A stretch of DNA of 64,000 nucleotides from Sphaerosporella brunnea. Its lineage: Eukaryota; Ascomycota; Pezizomycetes; Pezizales; Pyronemataceae. A program made the position numbers and the translations under genes. A model generated the notes under the pieces. That model searched no databases. It saw only the letters and a list, made by a program, of their open reading frames with translations, and had not been told where the DNA came from. The DNA lies in NCBI GenBank assembly GCA_008704415.1, contig VXIS01000044.1, forward strand, positions 124,001 to 188,000, written 5' to 3'. Shown here one piece after another: positions 45,706-58,419 of this stretch (position 1 is its first letter; every line of letters begins with the position of its first letter).

Positions 45706-46063
45706 ATGACCTCGATACCATCTGTTGTGTCCAATTCTGCCTGTGCAATTCCCAAAGAATTCCTCTTTTCCTTTAAGTTTTCAACTGCCTCAGCACCTCT
45801 TGAAGATAAACTACAACGGGGTTCAGCTCAACGTCCGAAGCCCAAACGGAAACCAGGTCCTCGGAAGAAGCCAATTTCTGCTGTGCCACCAAAGAAATTT
45901 GCTCCTCCACGAGTTTCACCTTCCCGCCAGCGTCAATCCTTCACCACTGCCTTTAAACTGGGAGTTCTTACATGGTGAGAGCATGGTACAGTTCAAACTC
46001 CACGTGGGAGCACTCGAGCTCCCACTCGAAACGACGTTGCAATACGTTATGGCCTGAAACAGG
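45706..46063 (+). pseudogene. Outer-element transposase, N-terminal piece
   Basis: ATG 45706 opens a Ser/Pro/Lys-rich leader (PKPKRKPGPRKKPIS) and then SRQRQSFTTAFKLGVLTW, the first helix of a brinker-like DNA-binding domain. A TGA (45976-45978) stands where the family has a second Trp. Beyond it the same frame continues EHGTVQTPRG...TRNDVAIRYGLKQ up to the insertion site of the 10-kb element at 46063/46064. The frame resumes at 56137 as VHYVNRWRQ. So the gene carries both a nonsense change and the insertion. Confidence 0.8.
46055..46063 (+). repeat. Left target-site duplication (9 bp)
   Basis: TGAAACAGG, repeated at 56128-56136. Joining the flanks at this duplication restores the outer transposase frame. 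An extra T could make it 10 bp; the inverted ends fit 9. Confidence 0.85.
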
Positions 46064-46191
46064 TGGCCTCGCATCCAGTCCCCTGGTGCCGACCGCTGGC
46101 GTGACCCAGGAATCGCTGCTACGGCGTACAACCGGTGATACGCTAGTCTAGCGCGTGAATCCCAAAACGTACTGTAAATGTTGGTGAGAGG

Positions 46192-46222
46192 GCCTGGAGA
46201 CTTCCACCTCACCAAAATCGAT
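46192..46222 (+). repeat. Subterminal 31-bp inverted repeat, left
   Basis: Begins GCCTGGAGACTTCC and ends AAAATCGAT; exact reverse complement of 55913-55943. It lies 14 bp before the DUF6589 start codon. Confidence 0.9.
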
Positions 46223-46235
46223 TCTTCCCGACAAC

Positions 46236-49034
46236 ATGCCTACTACCCGTGGAATCGCTTCGTGCATCACCGGCCAGTCAGAACAGAGTAATCCCGTTCA
46301 ACCCGGGACGCCGATCGAGGAATCCCGACATCACTCCCGGGGAGCTCAACCTGGCCCGCCAGGGCTTACACCTCTGCTATATCTCGATTCTGAAGCTCGT
46401 AGAATGGGATTCTCCTCACTTGCACAGGCCGTACTACACCAGGTTTCGGAGTCCTCAGACCTCGATCACTCTGCGCTCAAGGATTATACCGCACTCTTGA
46501 CGACAATCGTTGCGCAGAAGAAGTTCAACGCGACCATAGCAAGCTACAACAAACGATTCATGCGGGGTGTCACCCAGCTGCTTACGGACCACAGCATGAA
46601 GGAGTTAGATGTCCTCGTCGCAAAGCCTGAATCCCGATTCAATATGAAGCGTTTCACACCAGAGCATATCGAAAGCTTCAATCCCACCCTACTCCAGAGT
46701 GCCCACCAGCGATATACACCGACGTTGCACGCGATACTTCATGGTATCCTGCACAAAGACAATTCCCGACCGGCCCAAGATGATTCCCGCCGTAAACAGC
46801 GTCCCTATGATCGGGATTTGGTCGCCACCGCGGCCATCTGCATGCTATCATATGCCCGACACAGGGAATCCAACGGTCTGCAGGTGCTTACACATTTGGG
46901 CAATCAATCGATTTCAATGTGCTGACATCGGCAGGCTCTCGTGGGATATTTTCTATTCGCAAGCAATACTTCCAAGAGGACAATCGAAGTCTTGCATAGG
47001 TTTGGTCTGTCCGTCTCCTACGAGACGATTCTCAAAGCACTCCGGCACAATGCGGAAGCCTCACGAGACCAATTGCGCCGGGTAGTCAAAGAAGGCCGAT
47101 TCATGATATCATTCGACAACATGAACTTCTATCGAAATGTGCGCGATCAGAGAGCCCACAATCGGAGTCATCAAGTTAATTACACAGCCGGGTTCATCTG
47201 CGTCATGGATTGCGATTGTGGGTCCGGACCAGACTGCGAGTGCGGGGCATTGCCGGAGCGAAGTATCGATCACAAGGCGGCGAGTTTGCTCAGCTTCAAG
47301 GATTTCGATATCGATTCCGACGCCCAGATGTATCTCCATAACGCGGCCGATTATCTGTTCGGTACCGTGCTCAAGCGCCATTTTGCAAGCGCAATGAGCA
47401 AGCAGAAAGACCCGGAAACCCGTGGGCCCCGCTACTCAGTGCCGGATCCCCCTTTGGCCCATATCCGCGTCAAACAGGATCGGGCCCGGATACTGACATT
47501 CCAGACGCTGGATATGGATGAAGCGTCTATATCCGGGACAATCGATATCTTAAAGGCGCTCGTGCAGGAGCTCGGGATCGATTGTGAAGATGTGCTAGAC
47601 CGCAAGATCATGCTCCATGGGGATTACTTAACTGTGCGCAACGTAACTCGCGCTATGTTTCGGAGATCGGTTGAACCTGAACCTCTTATGCGATTCGGCT
47701 GGGTAGAGCCGATTGCTGGGTTGTTTCATCTTCAGATGAACGTGCTGAAGTTGATATTTGGGGTTTTTGAAGGAGAAGCGGCGGATCCAGGCTCTCTCAA
47801 ACGATTCAGCACTATCCTTCGCAGAAAGGGTGTTAGCAAGGATATCAAGGATTTCCACGCATGTGACGATTTCTTCAGAATGGTCCTCGAAGCCTATATC
47901 CTGGCATACTATCAGCATTATGCGGGGCTGGCATATGCCAATCAGCTGAATGCTCACCTCGAAACGAGCGATTGGCCCGCCCAAATCGCACTGGCGGTGC
48001 GCGCTGGGATTGATCCTTTCATGGTATCGCGGGTGCGTTCGGTGGCCCGCGAGTCAATCGATGCTGCCGTAGGGGTCCGCATGGAGGAGGAGCGTGCGAA
48101 ATGGGAGGTGCTTAAGGCGCAGCGGCGATTACAGCGTCAAAACGGACAATCGCTTGCAAATTTGCCCCGCAAGGATTGGAAGAACATCCAATCGAGGTTA
48201 ACCGCGGATTTGGGTGCGGGGATAAGAGACATTGTCAAAGAGAACGCCATGTTATTCCTTAATTGTGGTCTCATCTATCTCGACTTCCACGACGCATGTC
48301 GGGGAGGATTCAGTGGGCGCGTAGAGAGGTGCGTCAAGATGTTCGCAATCCTATTTGCGGGTGGGAAGCACGGCAATTACGCCGGTGAATGTATCCATCT
48401 TGTGGCGTGTTTAGCCCGTATGTGGAAACCGGAATTCAAACAAGCTTGGCTGGACTACTGCCTGATCAACCCGAACTCCAGGCCTGACATATACTGCGCA
48501 ATCGATAGGCACGGCGAAACAGTCATTCGAGAGAACAAGGACAAGGTGCGGCCGTCAGCCAATGCTAAGGATGATCGATTTTTGAGAGAGGTGGTGGCAC
48601 GCAATGTTGGATCACTCCGGGCAAGCAAGCATGTAATGGCCGAATGCACCGGGGCAACGGACTATCGAAATCGACATACGGAAGTGTCACGGACTGAGGA
48701 TATCAGCTTGATCCGCAAAAAACTGGTTGAAGCCCATGTCTTTACACACGTACCAGGGCGCGGATCTGATTCCCACCCCGCAGGCCGATTGAAGGAATAT
48801 GAAGATATCATCGGAAGCGGGTACTGTGCGATGGCCAGTGGGATTCCGATTAGTAAGTATCTGGCAAGGGCACGGTTTACATGGGATTCAGAATTGCCTC
48901 AAGAAGACGATGCGGATCTGGTTGAGGAAGCTGAATTGGATGACGGTGAACCCGGTTGTGGCGTGTATTCAACTGGGCAGAGGTTGGATGAGCCCGGGTT
49001 CAATGAAATCGATGACAGTGAGGACGAACTGTAG
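46236..49034 (+). CDS. DUF6589 protein, candidate transposase
   Basis: 915 aa from exons 46236-46883 and 46935-49034 (51-nt intron; branch GTGCTGAC, acceptor CGGCAG). The family is recognised from SFDNMNFYRNVRDQ..HQVNYTAGF, FQTLDMDEASISGTIDIL, KIMLHGDYLTVRN, RFGWVEPIAGLFHLQMN and LKRFSTILRRKGV...DFHACDDFF, all in DUF6589 order. A Cys cluster (CDCGSGPDCECG, about 309-319) could bind metal. DUF6589 has no established function that I know of. Acidic residues in conserved settings are D277 (SFDN), D446 (LHGD) and E701 (GNYAGECIHLV). This is the spacing and flavour of an RNase-H-like DDE/D nuclease, so I infer a transposase. The acidic C-terminus (EEDDADLVEEAELDDGE) is unlike a nuclease end. It faces the helicase gene tail to tail with a 23-bp gap. 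Confidence 0.85.
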
Positions 49035-49057
49035 AAGAAGCAAGAATCATATTGTAG

Positions 49058-51493
49058 CTAGCGGTCGAATCGTGGAGGTTTATACGGGATGAACTCGTAG
49101 GCAATCGGGCCGGCGGGCGTCCGAGGGGGAAATGAATGATGCCGGAAAGGCCAATTTGCACCCTCGTCGATCCATTGGACAACATTGAAGGTGCGGGGCA
49201 TCGAGGCCGATTGCATTGTCCCGGGCGTAGAATGGATTGTCCCGGGGGTAGAATGCATTGTCCCGGGCAGGGATCGCATTGTCCCGGGGGTAGGATGCAT
49301 TGTCCCGGGCGTAGAATGGATTGTCCCGGGCGTAGAATGCATTGTCCCGAGCGCAGAATGCATTGTCCCGGGCAGGGATCGCATTGTCCCGGGCGTAGAA
49401 TGGATTGTCCCGGGGGTAGAATGCATTGTCCAGGGGGTAGAATGCATTGTCCCGGGCGTAGAATGGATTGTCCCGGGGGTAGGATGCGTTGTCCCGGGCA
49501 GGGATCGCATTGTGCCGGGCAGGGATCTTTCACTCCCGTGTTGATTGGCGGTCTGGAGCAAAGCCTGACGGATACACTCCAGTAATTCCAGAGCCTTCGG
49601 CCCAATGGCGGAATTGGGTATCGAAACTTTGGGAAGAACGGCCTGCAGATCGTCGACGCTGTGGAGTGCCATACAATTGGCGATTATCAGTTCTCTTTGA
49701 GAGGCCGGGAGAATCAGATGATACGTTTCCGGCCAATGTTGCTTCAACCAAGAGTCGATTGTTTGTCGAACTGCTGTAATTGCGGCCTGGCCAGGTTTTC
49801 GAACTGCAGGGCCGCGAGGTAAAGTCGATAGCCCCGGGGCAATCGACTCAATGCACCTGACGCTCAGTGAGGCCGATACGCCATTGAGAACACAATTTTG
49901 AGCGTCGTCAGGATCCAGAAGGTAAAGCATATTGTCACAGCAGCCCGGGGCACGATTTTGGGATTCATACGCTGCTGAATCGCCAAAAGTGGCAAGCGCG
50001 GCGCGGCATCGACAACCAAGAGTATTGACATAGAAGAGCAACCCGGGGTCCAAACGCGCACAGGCCGTGTCGGTTTTACCACGCTCGGAAGGATTCTTGT
50101 CTTTGTAGAATGAGCTAATCATGTCCCTCACCCTGTTGCGACTCACGGTGTCCCCGGGAATCACTTTCTGAATGTAGTCTTGATACTGTTCGGGACACTT
50201 GGGGCCATTCGCGAGGAAGAACCGTGAGTCCGCAAAGACGATTGAGATTGCCGCAATTCGGGTATCACGCCCGGCACGGCCTAATTGCTGCCATAGTGCA
50301 GCCATGGTAACCAACTCGCTGAGTTTCCACTGCACTATGATCTTAACATCCGGGACATGGAGTCCCATTCCCGCGGCATCGGTGCAAATCAGGATTCTGG
50401 TAGACCCGTCCCGGAAGGCGTTCATGAATCGATCGCGAGTAGCTGCTTCAAGGTTCGAAGAGTAAGGTCTGATGACTGATTCTGCGCGTTCAGCCCAAAA
50501 GTGCTTGGCTCGGGCTGCAAGCCAAAGGTAGATCTTGTGGGCCTCATCTATGTTGTCGACAAAAACCATTGCTTTGTGGATTGACCATATCGGCCCCTGA
50601 CGGGATAGCAGGAAATCGAGCTTAGAGTAGTCAATCGATTGCTTAGTGGGAAGCTTAGAGACAATGTGCATGATATTCGGCCGGTCAATGCTGAGTCTGT
50701 ACAGACGGGTCCTTCCAGGCCTCAGCTGAAGCGATTGGCTGACAAAGGCCAGAACATTAGGCATAAGAGTTGCCGAGAGCGCAATGATCGGGATCGTCGG
50801 GAAATGAGCTCTCAACGCCCCGATATTGAGGTAATCCTACGTGCTATTAGCAGCCCGTACTCAGCGAGTCAGTGTAGCCATGATTCACCTTCCGGAATTC
50901 CCTCCAGCCCCAGACGAGGTGCGATTCGTCGACAGCAACTGCCTTCAAACGCGTGCAAAACTGATTGCTTCTGCCTCGTATGGTTTTCAGCCAGAAATAA
51001 GACCCGTCGCGTAACAAAACTTCGGGTGAAGCCAGGACCAAATCGAATGCACCACTGTCAACTTGATTCCAGAGGGCAGGGTTAACCATGAGGTTTTCTC
51101 GAGTCAGCTCAGCGACTCTGAAGCCTTGATCGATCACCCACTGGGCCTATTCTCTCATCCTCCAAGTCAGCTCTAGAATCCCAAACGCTGCGGGGTACAA
51201 ACCTGATCGCGGATCAACGCCAGTGTAGGTGAAACCACCAATACAATCGCTTTCTCGGAGACCGCGAGAATCGCCTGATAAACCAGACTTTTCCCGGAGC
51301 CTGTCCCAGCAATCACAATGACATCGTCGCCCCGAATGCAATCCGCTGTGGCACACGCCTGCCATGACTTCGGAGCAAATCCAAATCTCTGCTGTATCTT
51401 ATCCGCGAGTCGCCTCGGTGCCGGTGCACCTGAAGGATCGACTTCAGTCCAGGGCTGTCTCCCGGCTGTTTGGTGGATAGCCCGCTGAGTCAT
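49058..51493 (-). CDS. RecQ-family DNA helicase with a 7-residue tandem-repeat tail
   Basis: 775 aa from exons 51493-51203, 51146-50889 and 50836-49058 (introns of 56 and 52 nt). Helicase motifs: Walker A IAGTGSGKS (62-69), DESH (about 170-173, motif II) with HLVWGWREFRKDY, ALSAT (III), VFVDN (IV), ILICTDAAGMGLHVPDV (V) and QQLGRAGRD (VI). A RecQ zinc-binding-like part follows (CRCRAALATFGD...CCDNM). A linker leads to about 15 copies of a 7-residue unit of the PGTMHST type, then a short end. RecQ enzymes unwind DNA 3' to 5'. In a transposon it could process ends or aid repair of donor sites. It differs from subtelomeric TLH helicases in being inside a TIR-bounded element. Its promoter holds the same motif as the repeat tail. 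Confidence 0.88.
49214..49530. repeat. 21-bp tandem repeat inside the helicase coding end
   Basis: About 15 units, plus-strand core ATTGTCCCGGGnGTAGAATGn. It keeps frame on the minus strand (seven codons per unit). The CCCGGGACAAT core is the same as in the upstream array at 51578-52306. Confidence 0.9.
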
Positions 51494-51577
51494 GTCCTCC
51501 GTGATCGTGATGAGTATCGAATCGTTGGTTGCTCAGGGAGGCCCGGATCGCATCAACGCGTTGCGGGTTGAATTGTC

Positions 51578-52306
51578 ATTGTCCCGGGGGTTGCAGTCGA
51601 TAGTCCCGGGTTAAAGCACATTGTCCCGCGACCTCAGGGGCCAATCATTTTTGACGCGACGGGACAAAGCACATTGTCCCGGGAGTTGCAGTCGATAGTC
51701 CCGCAGCGCTAAGGGGACAAAGCACATAGTCCCGGGGGTTGCAGTCGATAGTCCCGGGTTAAAGCACATTGTTCCGCGACCTCAGGGGCCAATCATTTTT
51801 GACGCGACGGGACAAAGCACATTGTCCCGGGGGTTGCAGTCGATAGTCCCGGGTTAAAGCACATTGTCCCGCGACCTCAGGGGCCAATCATTTTTGACGC
51901 GACGGGACAAAGCACATTGTCCCGGGAGTTGCAGTCGATAGTCCCGCAGCGCTAAGGGGACAAAGCACATAGTCCCGGGGGTTGCAGTCGATAGTCCCGG
52001 GTTAAAGCACATTGTTCCGCGACCTCAGGGGCCAATCATTTTTGACGCGACGGGACAAAGCACATTGTCCCGGGGGTTGCAGTCGATAGTCCCGGGTTAA
52101 AGCACATTGTCCCGCGACCTCAGGGGCCAATCATTTTTGACGCGACGGGACAAAGCACATTGTCCCGGGAGTTGCAGTCGATAGTCCCGCAGCGCTAAGG
52201 GGACAAAGCACATAGTCCCGGGGGTTGCAGTCGATAGTCCCGGGTTAAAGCACATTGTCCCGGGACAATCAACTTTGACCCGAGGGGGTATTGGATATTG
52301 TCCCGC
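51578..52306. repeat. Three 243-bp tandem units upstream of the helicase gene
   Basis: Units start at 51578, 51821 and 52064 and are nearly identical. Each contains several ATTGTCCCG or ATAGTCCCG cores, many followed by GGG (palindromic CCCGGG), plus GACCTCAGGGGCCAATCA. The array ends 85 bp upstream of the helicase ATG and about 90 bp beyond the 3' end of the next gene, so it sits in the helicase promoter. No coding frame. Confidence 0.9.
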
Positions 52307-52393
52307 AGTGCGTGTCAACGGCGATTCTCTTTGTCATTCGCAAACCTCATGCAAGAACCAACAATTCGATACAAAATTCGATTAACCACGAAA

Positions 52394-53064
52394 CTAATAA
52401 CCTCTATGGGGCCTCGGCAGCCCCAACATCACCAGGTAATCGTTCCTGATCTTTTGTATCGGGGTATTGGCTCCCCAATCGAAACCATAGAAGGACCCCC
52501 AAGGGGTCCACCGCCCAAGATCGTTCGAATCAAACGCCGACTTTCTAAATGGAGCGCTTGCGTGGGCGTCCCCCGACTCCTCGTTGACTATCTTCAGATA
52601 GCCATACCTAGGAGCATGGTCCGGGGCGGACGCCTCGTATCGTGCCCGATTGATTGCCCGGACCTGGACGTTGTATCGTCTGTACTCTGGGTCAGCAATC
52701 GTATAGTATATCAAAATCGATTGCTTGCTAACCTATTGCTTGCTATGACCTGCATTGCTGAAGGTGGATCGGACTGCATGAGGGCATGCAGTTGTTGGGG
52801 AGTCCATTTCCGCAGAAGGACTGTTGGTCTTTGCAGAAAGACGGCGTGTGAGACCGAAGCTTTTGGAGTTGCCTTAGCACCTCCTGCAGGAGCCTTTGGA
52901 GCGATTGGTGGTGCCTGAGCAGGAGGTGCTGGAGCGATTGGTGGTGCCTGAGCACCCCCAGCAGGAGGTGCTGGAGCCATTGGTGGTGCCTGAGCACTTC
53001 CGGGAGGAGCATTTGGAGCGTTTTTTGGTGTGTTAGCACTTCCAGCAGGAGCTTTAGGAGCCAT
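52394..53064 (-). CDS. Small Ala/Pro-rich protein of the DUF6589-RecQ element
   Basis: 201 aa from exons 53064-52750 and 52684-52394 (65-nt intron; branch TGCTGAC; acceptor GAG gives the phase). Residues 1-65 are tandem APPIAPAPPAGGAQ-type repeats, encoded by a GGTGCTGG-rich minisatellite (52870-53050). The C-terminal 130 residues look folded: RPTVLLRKWTPQQLHALMQSD near the intron, YRRYNVQVRAINRARYEAS, YGYLKIVNEESGD, FDSNDLGRWTPWGSFYGFDWG. WTPQQLHALMQ resembles a single Myb/SANT-like first helix, but that is weak. Unknown function. It is transcribed in line with the helicase gene, separated from it by the 243-bp array. Confidence 0.6.
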
Positions 53065-53274
53065 GGTGTATGTGTGTATGAATCGAATCCAACCTGTGGA
53101 TCGCCATCTTTAAAGGGCGTTATTGACAGCCCATCTCGAAGGTGAATTGACTATAACAAGGAAACCCAACCTGACGCCTAAAACCGATAAACCCAACCTG
53201 AAGCCTGAAACCGATACCGCACCAACAAAGAAACCGATCCCTTCCCGATCCTTCTATGAGCAATCCCCCCCTTA

Positions 53275-55807
53275 CTACGAGGACTCCTTAACATCTGGGG
53301 ATTGCTGTTGCGGGGAATCGTCTCGCCCACTAACAAACCTCGATATGCCCCGCTCTATGTTGATTCCCGTGTCGGCCGGCGCACCCTTTTCTGCCTCCAT
53401 GGACGACATAATGGCCTGCTCCTCGTCGATATCGTCGCTGAGCGCAGGGGGTCCAACGTCGCAATACCCTTGAGGTTGCCTGGAATCGCCAAGGTGAGGC
53501 AACTGCACCTCATCCTCTTCCTCCGCGTCAGAATTGGGCAGGTGCCTATCGTCGTCGGAGTAAACATCAGATGGCCCACCCATGATCGAAGCCATGCTGA
53601 CCGGCGGGGAATCGATTCGAACAGGTGTCGATCGATCTACCCGCGAGCTAGTGAGGGACGCAGGCGTTGAGTCTGCCGTGGAATCGAAACTGGAGTAGGC
53701 CCGCTGACCTACTGACGGTGTCGCGCTACGTTTTGACCATGCCCCGAAGGATGGCGATCTCGTAGTCTCCGGAACCCATTGCGGCTGCTGAGGCTGCGAC
53801 CGCCTCTGATGCTGCTGATCCCGCTGATGCTGCTCCCGCTGCTGAACCTGCGGCGGTTGCATGTGGGGCTCCCAGCCGCTGCGGTGCAGCGGTGGGGGCG
53901 GAATCGACTTTCCCGCCTGCGGATGACCCTGGGAGACATTACGGGCGACACCCCGCCTATCAGCGATTGGCGCAGGGAACTGGGCACCCGCCGCCGCATC
54001 CCGAACAGGAGTTGGAATCGCATCCAGCGGGGGGAGTGTCGGCGGTGAAATCTGCGGCATGAATCGATTCCCGCGTTGGGCTGACCATCCAGCCATTGGG
54101 GCAGGGAATTGGGCTCCCGCCGCCGCATCCCGAACGGGATTTGGAATCGCATCCAGAGGGGGGAGTGTCGGCGGTGAATTCTGGGGGATGAATCGATTCC
54201 CGCCGCGTTGTGCGGACCATCCCCGAGGGACTCTGTGCTCTGGACCAGTTTTTGCTCTCAAATCGGCGATCGCTTTGCTGTTGCGGGCCGTGTCACGATA
54301 GGACTGCTCCAGTGTCTGGCGCTGAATGCGCCATTGCTCATAGTCCCTCGTTGCCTTTTCACGGATGGCAACCAGTTCATTCCGACGGGCCATCGAAAGG
54401 ATCATCTGGCTGTCTATCCGGGCCAATTCCATAGCTATGTAATCGTCCCATAGCTGCGCCTTCTTCCAGATCGGTGCCTTCGCAAAAGCAACGGCGAAAT
54501 CAGTCACGAACTGATCTGAATCAGTCGGGATGAAATCGCCTTTTGGCGTAAACACGCCGTCATCGGGATTGTAGAACTCCGTTGGCAAATCGAAGCCGCT
54601 GAGCGGAGGAGCACCACCTCGGGTGCTTTCAGTCTCATAAATAGCCCTGAAAGCTTCCCGCTGTTCGGCAACAGTCTCCTCTGCTTGTCCCCGCGCAGAA
54701 CCAATTGCCTCCCGTGGAAATGGCAGAGCCCCGGCCAAATCCGCTTTCGATTTCAAGACGTTGTCGAAATCGAATTTTGGCGGGGGAGCGCTGTGGGCCT
54801 CCTGCCGGGCAGCCTTGAGCGATTCTAGTGGCGGCAGCGGCTGCAGCGGACGACCCGCCGTAGGAACGATTCTGGGTGTCGCCTTGAGGGCCTCGGCATG
54901 CGGCGACATAATCCTACGCAGATCGAAAATTCGCTGCTCACGGCCAATCTCTTTCTTGCCGGTCCGAGCATGGTGAGCAATGATATGGGAGCGGACCAGC
55001 TCCAGGGCGATTCGCGTGAGCTCCGCATACCACATCTCGCCCCTATCCTCACTGCTGAACCACCGGACCTGGCCATCTGCGGCCATGGGCACTCTCAAAC
55101 CACGCAGGCATAGGAGCCAGAAATCGGTGCATTGGGTCAGACCCCACTGCAAACCCGATTTTCCGTTCCACAACAACAAATCGTCGGGCTTTGCGGGGTT
55201 TGGAGGCACGCGGGAATCTCTCGATTTGCGCCGGCTACACAGCGAATCAATTAGCTATCACCAGAAAAACGATTGCCGCGGCCACTCACACAGCGCTTGT
55301 ACGGGCTTCTATCCAATCCTTTCCGGAGTCAGTCGCGATCCAGCTTTCTGCATACGCGCGCACACGCTCCAAGAAAAAGCCTTGGAACGTGTGAAAGCTG
55401 TCCTCGAAACGCTCGGACAGCTTCTGTGCAGTTTCTGAGGAATCGCTTTCGGCGAACGCGGGTAAGGTTCGCCGAAAAAGCTCCGCACGCTCGTCGGGAT
55501 TGAAATCCCGCGAGGCCGTGAACAGCTGCGCCCAGAAGTAATCCAGGCCGACTGCATAATCGTCTGCGGAGACGGCGTGGCTCAGAATGGCCGCGGAATC
55601 GGGATTGACGTATGCCTCGTAGCAGGCGTCCGACGAGGCACAGGGATCAATCGAATTGATGCCGTCACGACCGGCACGCCCTTTACGAGGGGAGACCAAT
55701 TTGGATTGACCCCGAGGGACCGTTCGTGCCTTCTTTGTGGCTTGTTGCCGTGCATCAGGAGTGGGCGAATCGCCCGTGCGCTTTGGGACTGCAGGTCGAG
55801 AAGTCAT
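53275..55807 (-). CDS. 825-residue protein of unknown function in the DUF6589-RecQ element
   Basis: Exons 55807-55290 and 55234-53275 (55-nt intron, GTGAGT...TGTGTAG, branch TAGCTAAT) add to 825 codons with phase kept. The N-terminus is basic (PDARQQATKKARTVPRGQSK), suggesting nuclear or DNA binding. A helical region follows (SADDYAVGLDYFWAQLF...ERFEDSFHTFQGFFLERVRAY). Then a hydrophobic, Trp-rich segment (LLLWNGKSGLQWGLTQCTDFWLLCLRGLRV) leads to a long helical middle (FVTDFAVAFAKAPIWKKAQLWDDYIAMELARI). The C-terminal 330 residues are disordered, with a near-exact duplication of about 40 residues (ISPPTLPPLDAIPTPVRDAA; 53965-54190) and Gln/His-rich sequence. I recognise no family. Its conservation with the DUF6589 gene elsewhere would show whether it is part of the machinery. 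Confidence 0.65.
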
Positions 55808-55912
55808 TGGTCTGGACGGGGATTTGTTGGGGGGTACACGGAAAATGCTCGGAATTGGTATGGGAATCGATTCTGAGAGAGCGAGAGGAGAATTTCGACG
55901 AGCTGGAGGAGT

Positions 55913-55943
55913 ATCGATTTTGGTGAGGTGGAAGTCTCCAGGC
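55913..55943 (-). repeat. Subterminal 31-bp inverted repeat, right
   Basis: Partner of 46192-46222; lies about 105 bp upstream of the 825-aa gene's start codon on the minus strand. Confidence 0.9.
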
Positions 55944-56127
55944 TCTCCTACGAGTTTGAAGTTTGTATAGATCCAGAATGGTTAGCGTGGAGCTAGTCGC
56001 TGCTACGCAGTGATCGCGTAGAATTAAGACCGGCTGCACCCCAGCAGTACTAACGCCTCTACGCTGTCAGGGCGAATAATCAAGCCCGGCCACACCCCGG
56101 AGTACTAGGAGCCTGGAAACGAGGCCA

Positions 56128-56136
56128 TGAAACAGG
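56128..56136 (+). repeat. Right target-site duplication (9 bp)
   Basis: TGAAACAGG, partner of 46055-46063. Confidence 0.85.
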
Positions 56137-56425: not shown

Positions 56426-57237
56426 TGTAACGAGGCTCTGTCTACCAGAGTGTCGTGGAATTGAACTCAGGACCTTAAGAAACTAAATCCTAAACAATAG
56501 AATTTTAAGGGCTATTCTGTCGGGTGGACACTAATGGTTCTTATTGCTGAAGATAAAGGGGTTCTCTCGGCGGAAGCAATCCTACTTATAGTAGAACGCC
56601 GCTCCAGAGACTACCGTCTCCCTGAGTAATACTCAGCCTTTACTCCTTGCTGGCTTTCCGACAGTCTCTACGACTGCGGGCGTCAGGCGCGCACAGAGAT
56701 CGCCCCACCTTCCTATGACTCACTCTTTGATTCCAAATCATGAGTCATAGACATGGGTCGCACCCGGATACCCCGCTCTGTAAGCGTTGTATTCTCGTGT
56801 TGCAGGAAGATGCTCAGCCCTATTGGCTCCATCTCCCGATCTTCTGCGTCGCATGCCCTACGCAACAACCACACTTACTATGGAGGTTCTAGGCCGAGTG
56901 ATTCTTCCCTTTTTCGGCTCTACGCCTTCCGGTTGATCACTCCTGACCCCTCCGATCGTCAGGCTAGTTCCTGGAACAGGCAGGTCAACGAAGATATCTC
57001 GGAAGAGCTCTAACAACAGCCTATACTATAGTTATCTCCGAACCGGATGCTCTTCCCAGGTAGCGTCCCACCTGAGGCACCCGATCTCCGAGTTCTTCTA
57101 TAGCGTCACTCAAGCTAGCTACTATGATCCGGAGCCACCCGGCTATCACGTGCCCTCGAGGCGATCACTATGCAGACTCTATTCTATTTCCCTAGCTGAC
57201 TACTTAGAGCACATGTCACGTGACCATACCCGTGACA
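56426..57237. mobile_element. Solo LTR of a retrotransposon
   Basis: 812 bp, begins TGTAACGAGG and ends CCCGTGACA (TG...CA type), flanked by a 5-bp duplication CCATG (56421-56425 and 57238-57242). Removal restores the transposase frame exactly. No internal genes. It contains an inverted pair CTATGACTCA/TGAGTCATAG near 56714-56750, an AP-1-like site. Confidence 0.88.
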
Positions 57238-58419
57238 CCATGTTTTCAACATGTCTCAAGGCTGGTTCGCCAAGTTTTTATCCAGAAACGAAATTGCAAT
57301 TCGCATTGTCACCAACAAAGCACAGCAACCGCCTAAAGAGTATTGCGATATGATTATCAACTTTCTCTGTTTCAACCGGAGAAATTCCCAATTGCGTGAT
57401 GGTGCAGAAGATACACTACGAGGGGTGATTACAGCGGTGGGCCGGTTTTTACTCTCGCACATTCTCAACATGGATCAAACACCACTTCCTTGGGAGTATC
57501 TAACTGGACGAACTTACGATTTCAAAGGCAATAAAACCATCTGGATTCGAAGTAAAAGGTTCGGTTGGGATAAACGTCAGGCAACAATACAACTTACAAT
57601 TTTTGCTGATGGCGTCGCACGAGTTAAGCCTCTTCTGATTTTTCGTGGGGCAGAAGAAAACAAAAAAGCACCTCGAAAGCAGGAGGAAGCCCAATACGAT
57701 CCTCGGGTGGTTGTTAAATTCAACCCTAAAGGTTACGCTAATGGTTCAATTATTCTTTTTTGGCTGCAAGAAATGCTGCTACCTGTCCTTGGTGATCGCC
57801 ACACACAGCCGGCGCTTCTAGTAATGGATCTTCTCAAGTCCCACAAGACTGACACCGTTAAAGCCTTTCTGCGAGAGCAGAACATTACACTCTCGCTTGT
57901 TCCAGCTGACTGCACTGGTCTCGTGCAACCCCTTGATGTTTCTGTAAACCGGCCTTTCAAAGATATCCTCAAACAGACCATTGATGACGAGCTGGACCAG
58001 CTGGAGTCTGCAGATGTTCCAATTGTTAAGGAGAGTGAAGTTGGAAAAATGCGGGTGATGATGACGCGCTGTGTGGGAAAAGCTTGGGAAGAGTTCTGCG
58101 CAACCCGACAGGAGGTCATTGTACGGAGCTTTCGAAGTCTAGGCCTATCACTTCCTATTGACGGAAGCTGTGATGACGAGCTATCGGTAAAAGGGTTTGG
58201 ATCTAGAGGTACTGCGGTCTGGCATTAAAGAGTGGAGGACGCGAGGATGCGCAGTGCAGGATGAGTTTTCGGATACAAGTGATTCTCAAGGCGAGGATCT
58301 TGCCTCAGCTGATGGCAGGTCTAAATTTTGACAGCAGCGATGAAAGCGGCACAGAATCTTCCCTAGGCATCCCGGACATCAACTTGATTGCGGGCGGCGC
58401 CCTCCCTCACGGCAGCGAC

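Follow-up and report, generated by a model that had tools for sequence, protein, structure and literature searches.

A complete DUF6589–RecQ transposon in Sphaerosporella brunnea that fits the AcademH type

AcademH is reportedly the helicase-bearing lineage of the Academ superfamily. In those portions of the published accounts available to us, a RecQ helicase is noted in Academ (PMC3627910), the target duplications are 9 or 10 bp long in AcademH and 3-4 bp long in AcademX (PMC10045372), and low-copy AcademH elements are recorded from Basidiomycota, Ascomycota and Mucoromycota (PMC10799480). Here we describe an element of the soil ascomycete Sphaerosporella brunnea, found in a 64-kb stretch of DNA (contig VXIS01000044.1, positions 124,001 to 188,000; the window), that occupies positions 46064-56127 of the plus strand (10,064 bp) and encodes a DUF6589 protein, a RecQ-like helicase and two further proteins. 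Coordinates without a contig name are window positions, and all searches for copies, paralogues and loci covered one genome, an assembly of 50.6 Mb in 640 contigs. The ends, the target duplication, the empty sites and the further copies of this element define a complete transposon, which looks autonomous and is very probably a recently mobile cut-and-paste DNA transposon of AcademH type. It fits as a new, well-dissected member of that type and not as a new kind of transposon, an assignment that derives from the DUF6589–RecQ gene pair and the length of the target duplication.

The boundaries of the element are sharply drawn. When window positions 36001-64000 were scanned for 8-bp inverted ends (at most one mismatch) that enclose the genes and have exact duplications of 8-10 bp beside them, two pairs were found, one of which has a mismatch; the other is the perfect pair TGGCCTCG, at 46064-46071 (+) and, on the minus strand, at 56120-56127. 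Immediately outside lie the two copies of a 9-bp target duplication, TGAAACAGG, at 46055-46063 and 56128-56136 (both +). The original prediction, made from the letters of the window, had proposed a complete 10-kb element with these ends and this duplication, and its coordinates stand uncorrected. Empty sites are present in paralogues of the same genome: on contig C512, 284 bp align at 94% identity without a gap across the insertion point, with TGAAACAGG present only once, and on C281 a gapless alignment covers 287 bp at 89%, while four further paralogues span the point at 67-70%. The reading frame of the C512 paralogue stays open through the insertion point, and the window retains, downstream of the insert, a part of the interrupted gene (57236-58228, +) with a DDE_1 transposase domain (E 7.2e-17). 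The host of the insertion is thus another transposon with a disrupted transposase gene, as had been proposed.

Of the window family, searches of the contigs recovered six left and four right ends, the left ones in different flanks. A second complete copy, on C79, measures 9,957 bp and has its own target duplication, GGAAGAACC. Close to the ends of their contigs lie a left end (C1) and a right end (C323) that have exactly 9 bp in common (CATGTAGAC); they are most simply taken as the two ends of one insertion. Exact 9-bp duplications are therefore seen at three insertions (window, C79 and C1/C323), which takes the duplication of the window beyond chance. On C618, C539 and C469 the left ends lie in other flanks, and the right sides of these copies are outside the assembly. 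Other copies are partial or rearranged: C310 retains only the last 1,903 bp of the element, followed by the window's own right flank for at least 2 kb, C323 retains only the last 147 bp and then has 789 bp of other sequence, and the C539 copy follows the window-type sequence for 2,699 bp and then departs from it. The rearranged C539 and C323 copies have a non-element sequence in common (L037:4741-5253 and L040:2194-2706; 98.8% over 514 bp), which abuts element base 2,699 in C539 and base 9,918 in C323.

The right flank of the window recurs, 99.89-100% identical over at least 1.76 kb and up to the element boundary, on C310, C631 and C45; the latter two carry only a few bases of the right end, and both start or end at the boundary. 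This may reflect redundant assembly or a true duplication. Such recurrence could suggest duplicated chromosome segments, and with them an explanation in which host genes or a segmental duplication happen to be flanked by chance repeats. Six left ends in different flanks, three exact 9-bp duplications and empty-site paralogues speak against it, and we give that explanation practically no credence. Defined ends, duplications, empty sites and near-identical copies elsewhere show instead that the element has moved as a unit, as originally proposed.

DUF6589 is, to our knowledge, a fungal family to which no function has been assigned. The gene in the element has two exons (46236-46883, +, with the ATG at 46236, and 46935-49034, +) separated by an intron at 46884-46934, and its product is 915 residues long. 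Over residues 190-830 it is matched by an S. brunnea protein in NCBI at a rounded identity of 100%. Up to E 1, the exon-2 frame matched only DUF6589 (E 4.2e-66) and one sub-threshold DUF in Pfam, with no hAT and no MULE family, and a PDB sequence search with exon 2 gave no match up to E 1. The predicted structure resembles a DDE transposase, with Hermes, a hAT transposase, as the best solved match, so that at the level of the predicted fold the protein agrees with the DDE transposase of AcademH. The candidate catalytic residues, D277, D446 and E652, are encoded in exon 2 and are not fully invariant. On the strength of this model, DUF6589 is most probably the recombinase, the DDE transposase by which helicase-bearing (Academ-type) transposons move; the role that the original prediction had given it thus appears probable, and a function can be suggested for a fungal protein family that had none.

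The modelled likeness to Hermes also raises the question of whether the element might be hAT- or Mutator-like, with DUF6589 as a divergent hAT transposase and the helicase as captured cargo. hAT elements make 8-bp target duplications, whereas 9 bp were found here at all three insertions; the exon-2 frame is without a hAT or MULE family in Pfam; and the helicase partner is retained in divergent DUF6589 families. We consider a hAT- or Mutator-like origin very unlikely, and the AcademH type remains the preferred assignment.

The helicase that enters into this comparison is encoded on the minus strand by three exons, at 51203-51493 (ATG at 51493), 50889-51146 (containing a DESH box) and 49058-50836 (Helicase_C domain and a repetitive C-terminal tail), and is 775 residues long. 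The protein scores below the NCBI cut-off for RecQ; RecQ proteins are its best PDB matches, led by RECQ5 (E 1.3e-26 for the first 621 residues). Across the genome DUF6589 gave 14 matches on ten contigs; six of these contigs belong to the window family, and the loci on the other four (C430, C579, C467 and C24) are divergent. A RecQ-like match lies within 5 kb of DUF6589 at three of the four divergent loci, C24 being the one with none within that distance. The helicase is likewise present in five of the six window-family copies that have a left end; in the sixth, C539, the contig stops before the position of the helicase. The earlier suggestion that the helicase travels with DUF6589 is in this way upheld in this genome. 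No ends or duplications were found in the stretches examined at C430, C467 and C24.

AcademH-type features of the element therefore include its own RecQ-type helicase, a 9-bp target duplication, low copy number and occurrence in a fungus of the Ascomycota, as described in the available portions of the accounts cited above. No described superfamily was thought to have this gene set, a claim that does not survive comparison with the RecQ helicase of Academ (PMC3627910) and the 9- or 10-bp duplications of AcademH (PMC10045372), as far as the available text of these sources goes. The same portions of the AcademH descriptions make no mention of genes like the two further ones of our element. A different possibility is a superfamily distinct from Academ, in which a DUF6589 DDE transposase acquired its RecQ helicase partner independently and the length of the duplication is a coincidence. 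A literature text search for DUF6589 or PF20231 returned nothing relevant and no link to Academ, and the best predicted-fold match is Hermes; against this, both the type of helicase and the length of the duplication agree with Academ and AcademH (PMC3627910, PMC10045372), and AcademH is recorded from Ascomycota (PMC10799480), again in the portions available. We regard a distinct superfamily as improbable and retain the assignment to AcademH. If this assignment holds, AcademX belongs to the same superfamily, although its 3-4-bp duplications (PMC10045372, available text) differ from the 9 bp seen at three insertions here. Eight frames of the window were in addition scanned against Pfam. The AcademX nuclease is of the XPG kind and the Starship captain is a DUF3435 tyrosine recombinase; neither a nuclease family of the XPG kind nor DUF3435 appeared in these frames.

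A mechanism can be sketched from these features. The DUF6589 protein would bind the ends of the element and cut with a DDE active site, for which D277, D446 and E652 are the best candidates; the element would then be joined to the target by cuts staggered by 9 bp, and gap repair by the host would produce the target duplication, while the helicase may open the duplex at the ends or in the course of gap repair. The element also has a subterminal inverted repeat of 38 bp, probably a transposase-binding site or a shared promoter. Its arms (46188-46225, +, and 55910-55947, -) are 95% complementary and set in from the ends of the element by 124 and 180 bp. Each arm is 5' of the first gene on its side, the left one 10 bp before the start codon of DUF6589 and the right one about 100 bp upstream of the rightmost gene. 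Intact frames, exact ends and near-identical copies make the element a good starting point for bench studies of RecQ in a cut-and-paste transposon.

The original prediction of four intron-bearing genes with intact frames was borne out, with products of 915 residues (DUF6589), 775 residues (helicase), 201, 205 or 207 residues (a small Ala/Pro-rich protein) and 825 residues. The gene for the 825-residue protein has two exons on the minus strand (55290-55807, with the ATG at 55807, and 53275-55234), with the intron of this model at 55289-55235; alternative splices give 809, 815 or 820 residues. The small gene, also on the minus strand, consists in its 201-residue model of exons at 52750-53064 (ATG at 53064) and 52394-52684, with splices to 205 and 207 residues possible. 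Both proteins are presumably accessories without an assigned role. The 825-residue protein matches no Pfam family, and in this genome its gene turned up on no contigs other than C379, C310 and C79, all with copies of the window family, so that it drops out of the general DUF6589–RecQ gene set in which it had been placed. Protein searches, which scored about 8,000 candidates sharing most words and in which absence of relatives is weak evidence, returned an S. brunnea protein, one from a JGI source and one from Pyronema omphalodes, the last being 56% identical across 92% of the part used as query. A structure predicted via the Pyronema relative (three sequences) had a mean pLDDT of 38.7 and was unusable.

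The copies of the window family are very similar, with pairwise identities of 99.06-99.77% over the left 2.6-3.1 kb of six copies. DUF6589 is full-length (915 residues) in the window, C79 and C469 copies and open throughout the part compared in C539; the C1 match has one internal stop, and C1 and C618, in which the anchor sequence is changed, fell outside the full-frame scoring. The copies show 49 departures from their majority sequence, 39 of them C-to-T or G-to-A changes; of the 39, 28 fall in CpG, a context that holds 28.6% of cytosines, and four in CpA. Judged from these sequences, decay looks more like deamination of methylated CpG than like classical RIP, which is disfavoured as the source of the differences because the changes are mainly in CpG and not in CpA.

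A second, sister family is represented on C579 by an element at 97384-109832 (12,449 bp), whose 8-bp inverted ends, TCCTCTCG, match perfectly and which is flanked by the duplication AGCGGTTGG. Its left end has no relative in the genome. Six other contigs are similar to its right end; C124, C400, C169, C450 and C423 stop matching at base 398-400 of the 400-base query, and C112 falls short of the end. C579 and C430 have in common DUF6589, the helicase, a gene of about 500 codons (L044:6914-8512 and L041:7064-8536, both -; 30% identity) and, beside RecQ and DUF6589, a gene resembling 2OG-Fe(II) dioxygenases of the TET/JBP kind (L045:2813-4576 and L042:2788-3984, both -; 66% identity). The gene of about 500 codons, which in its C579 copy matches no Pfam family over the cut-off, is perhaps the positional counterpart of the 825-residue gene. 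C400 has the same order of end, dioxygenase and helicase; no DUF6589 match was found on this contig (29,268 bases), which ends 2.2 kb beyond the helicase match. C467 gave no dioxygenase match, and the frames scanned in the window element include no TET/JBP-like gene.

The dioxygenase-like protein had no direct Pfam match of dioxygenase kind and matched CcTet, a Coprinopsis-type Tet structure, weakly (E 0.012, with a second entry at 0.013; 0.084-0.088 with a two-sequence profile). It is connected more firmly to a protein on C631 (BLASTP 4e-14, hhalign 97%), which itself matches CcTet at 4.1e-6 and Pfam Tet_JBP at 5e-4, below the cut-off. This TET/JBP-like protein (L054:2-1630, +) has 16 ASTAG repeats, and about 47 kb further along C631 there is another match with the same scores. 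A Tet_JBP search of the whole genome gave four matches, none over the cut-off. Matches to the dioxygenase itself number 40 on 24 contigs, weak ones and fragments included, so the gene is found beyond these elements as well.

Fungal transposon lineages with TET/JBP genes have been surveyed (Kojima 2025, PMC12730594); the available portion names Helitron and IS3EU for Ascomycota, does not mention Academ in the main text, and also describes distantly related TET/JBP-like proteins, which makes the weak scores found here unsurprising. The C579 family, with C430 and C400, resembles these transposons in carrying a TET/JBP-like gene. We speculate, with about even confidence, that AcademH-type lineages of Pezizomycetes differ in their accessories: the window family has the 825-residue and small proteins, and C579, C430 and probably C400 captured a TET/JBP-like dioxygenase that strips cytosine methylation from the copies and thereby works against silencing. 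In the window family, the bias of C-to-T decay towards CpG fits methylation of these elements. The same group of transposons may also have recruited an anti-silencing enzyme, which, if true, would extend the known range of TET/JBP carriers by one transposon superfamily.

The element is also rich in the pentamer AATCG/CGATT, which it contains 100 times, or 9.94 times per kb, while the remainder of the window has 1.71 per kb. The occurrences are spread over coding and non-coding sequence, both strands and several frames; no such excess is seen in the C579 element or the C430, C467 and C24 stretches (1.01-2.33 per kb). Codon usage was rejected as its source, since in each of three genes (the helicase taken without its repetitive tail) none of 500 codon-preserving shuffles reaches the observed count. 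The pentamer neither attracts nor repels CpG changes (4 of 28 inside it, 4.2 expected). Finally, two tandem arrays are present, one of 21-bp units within the helicase gene, in the 3' end of its coding sequence (49164-49583), and one of higher order between the helicase and the small gene (51577-52305; 95/53-bp units, 243-bp period), and they have words such as ATTGTCCCGGG in common. The contigs C1, C618 and C469 end about 0.5-0.75 kb past the 21-bp array.
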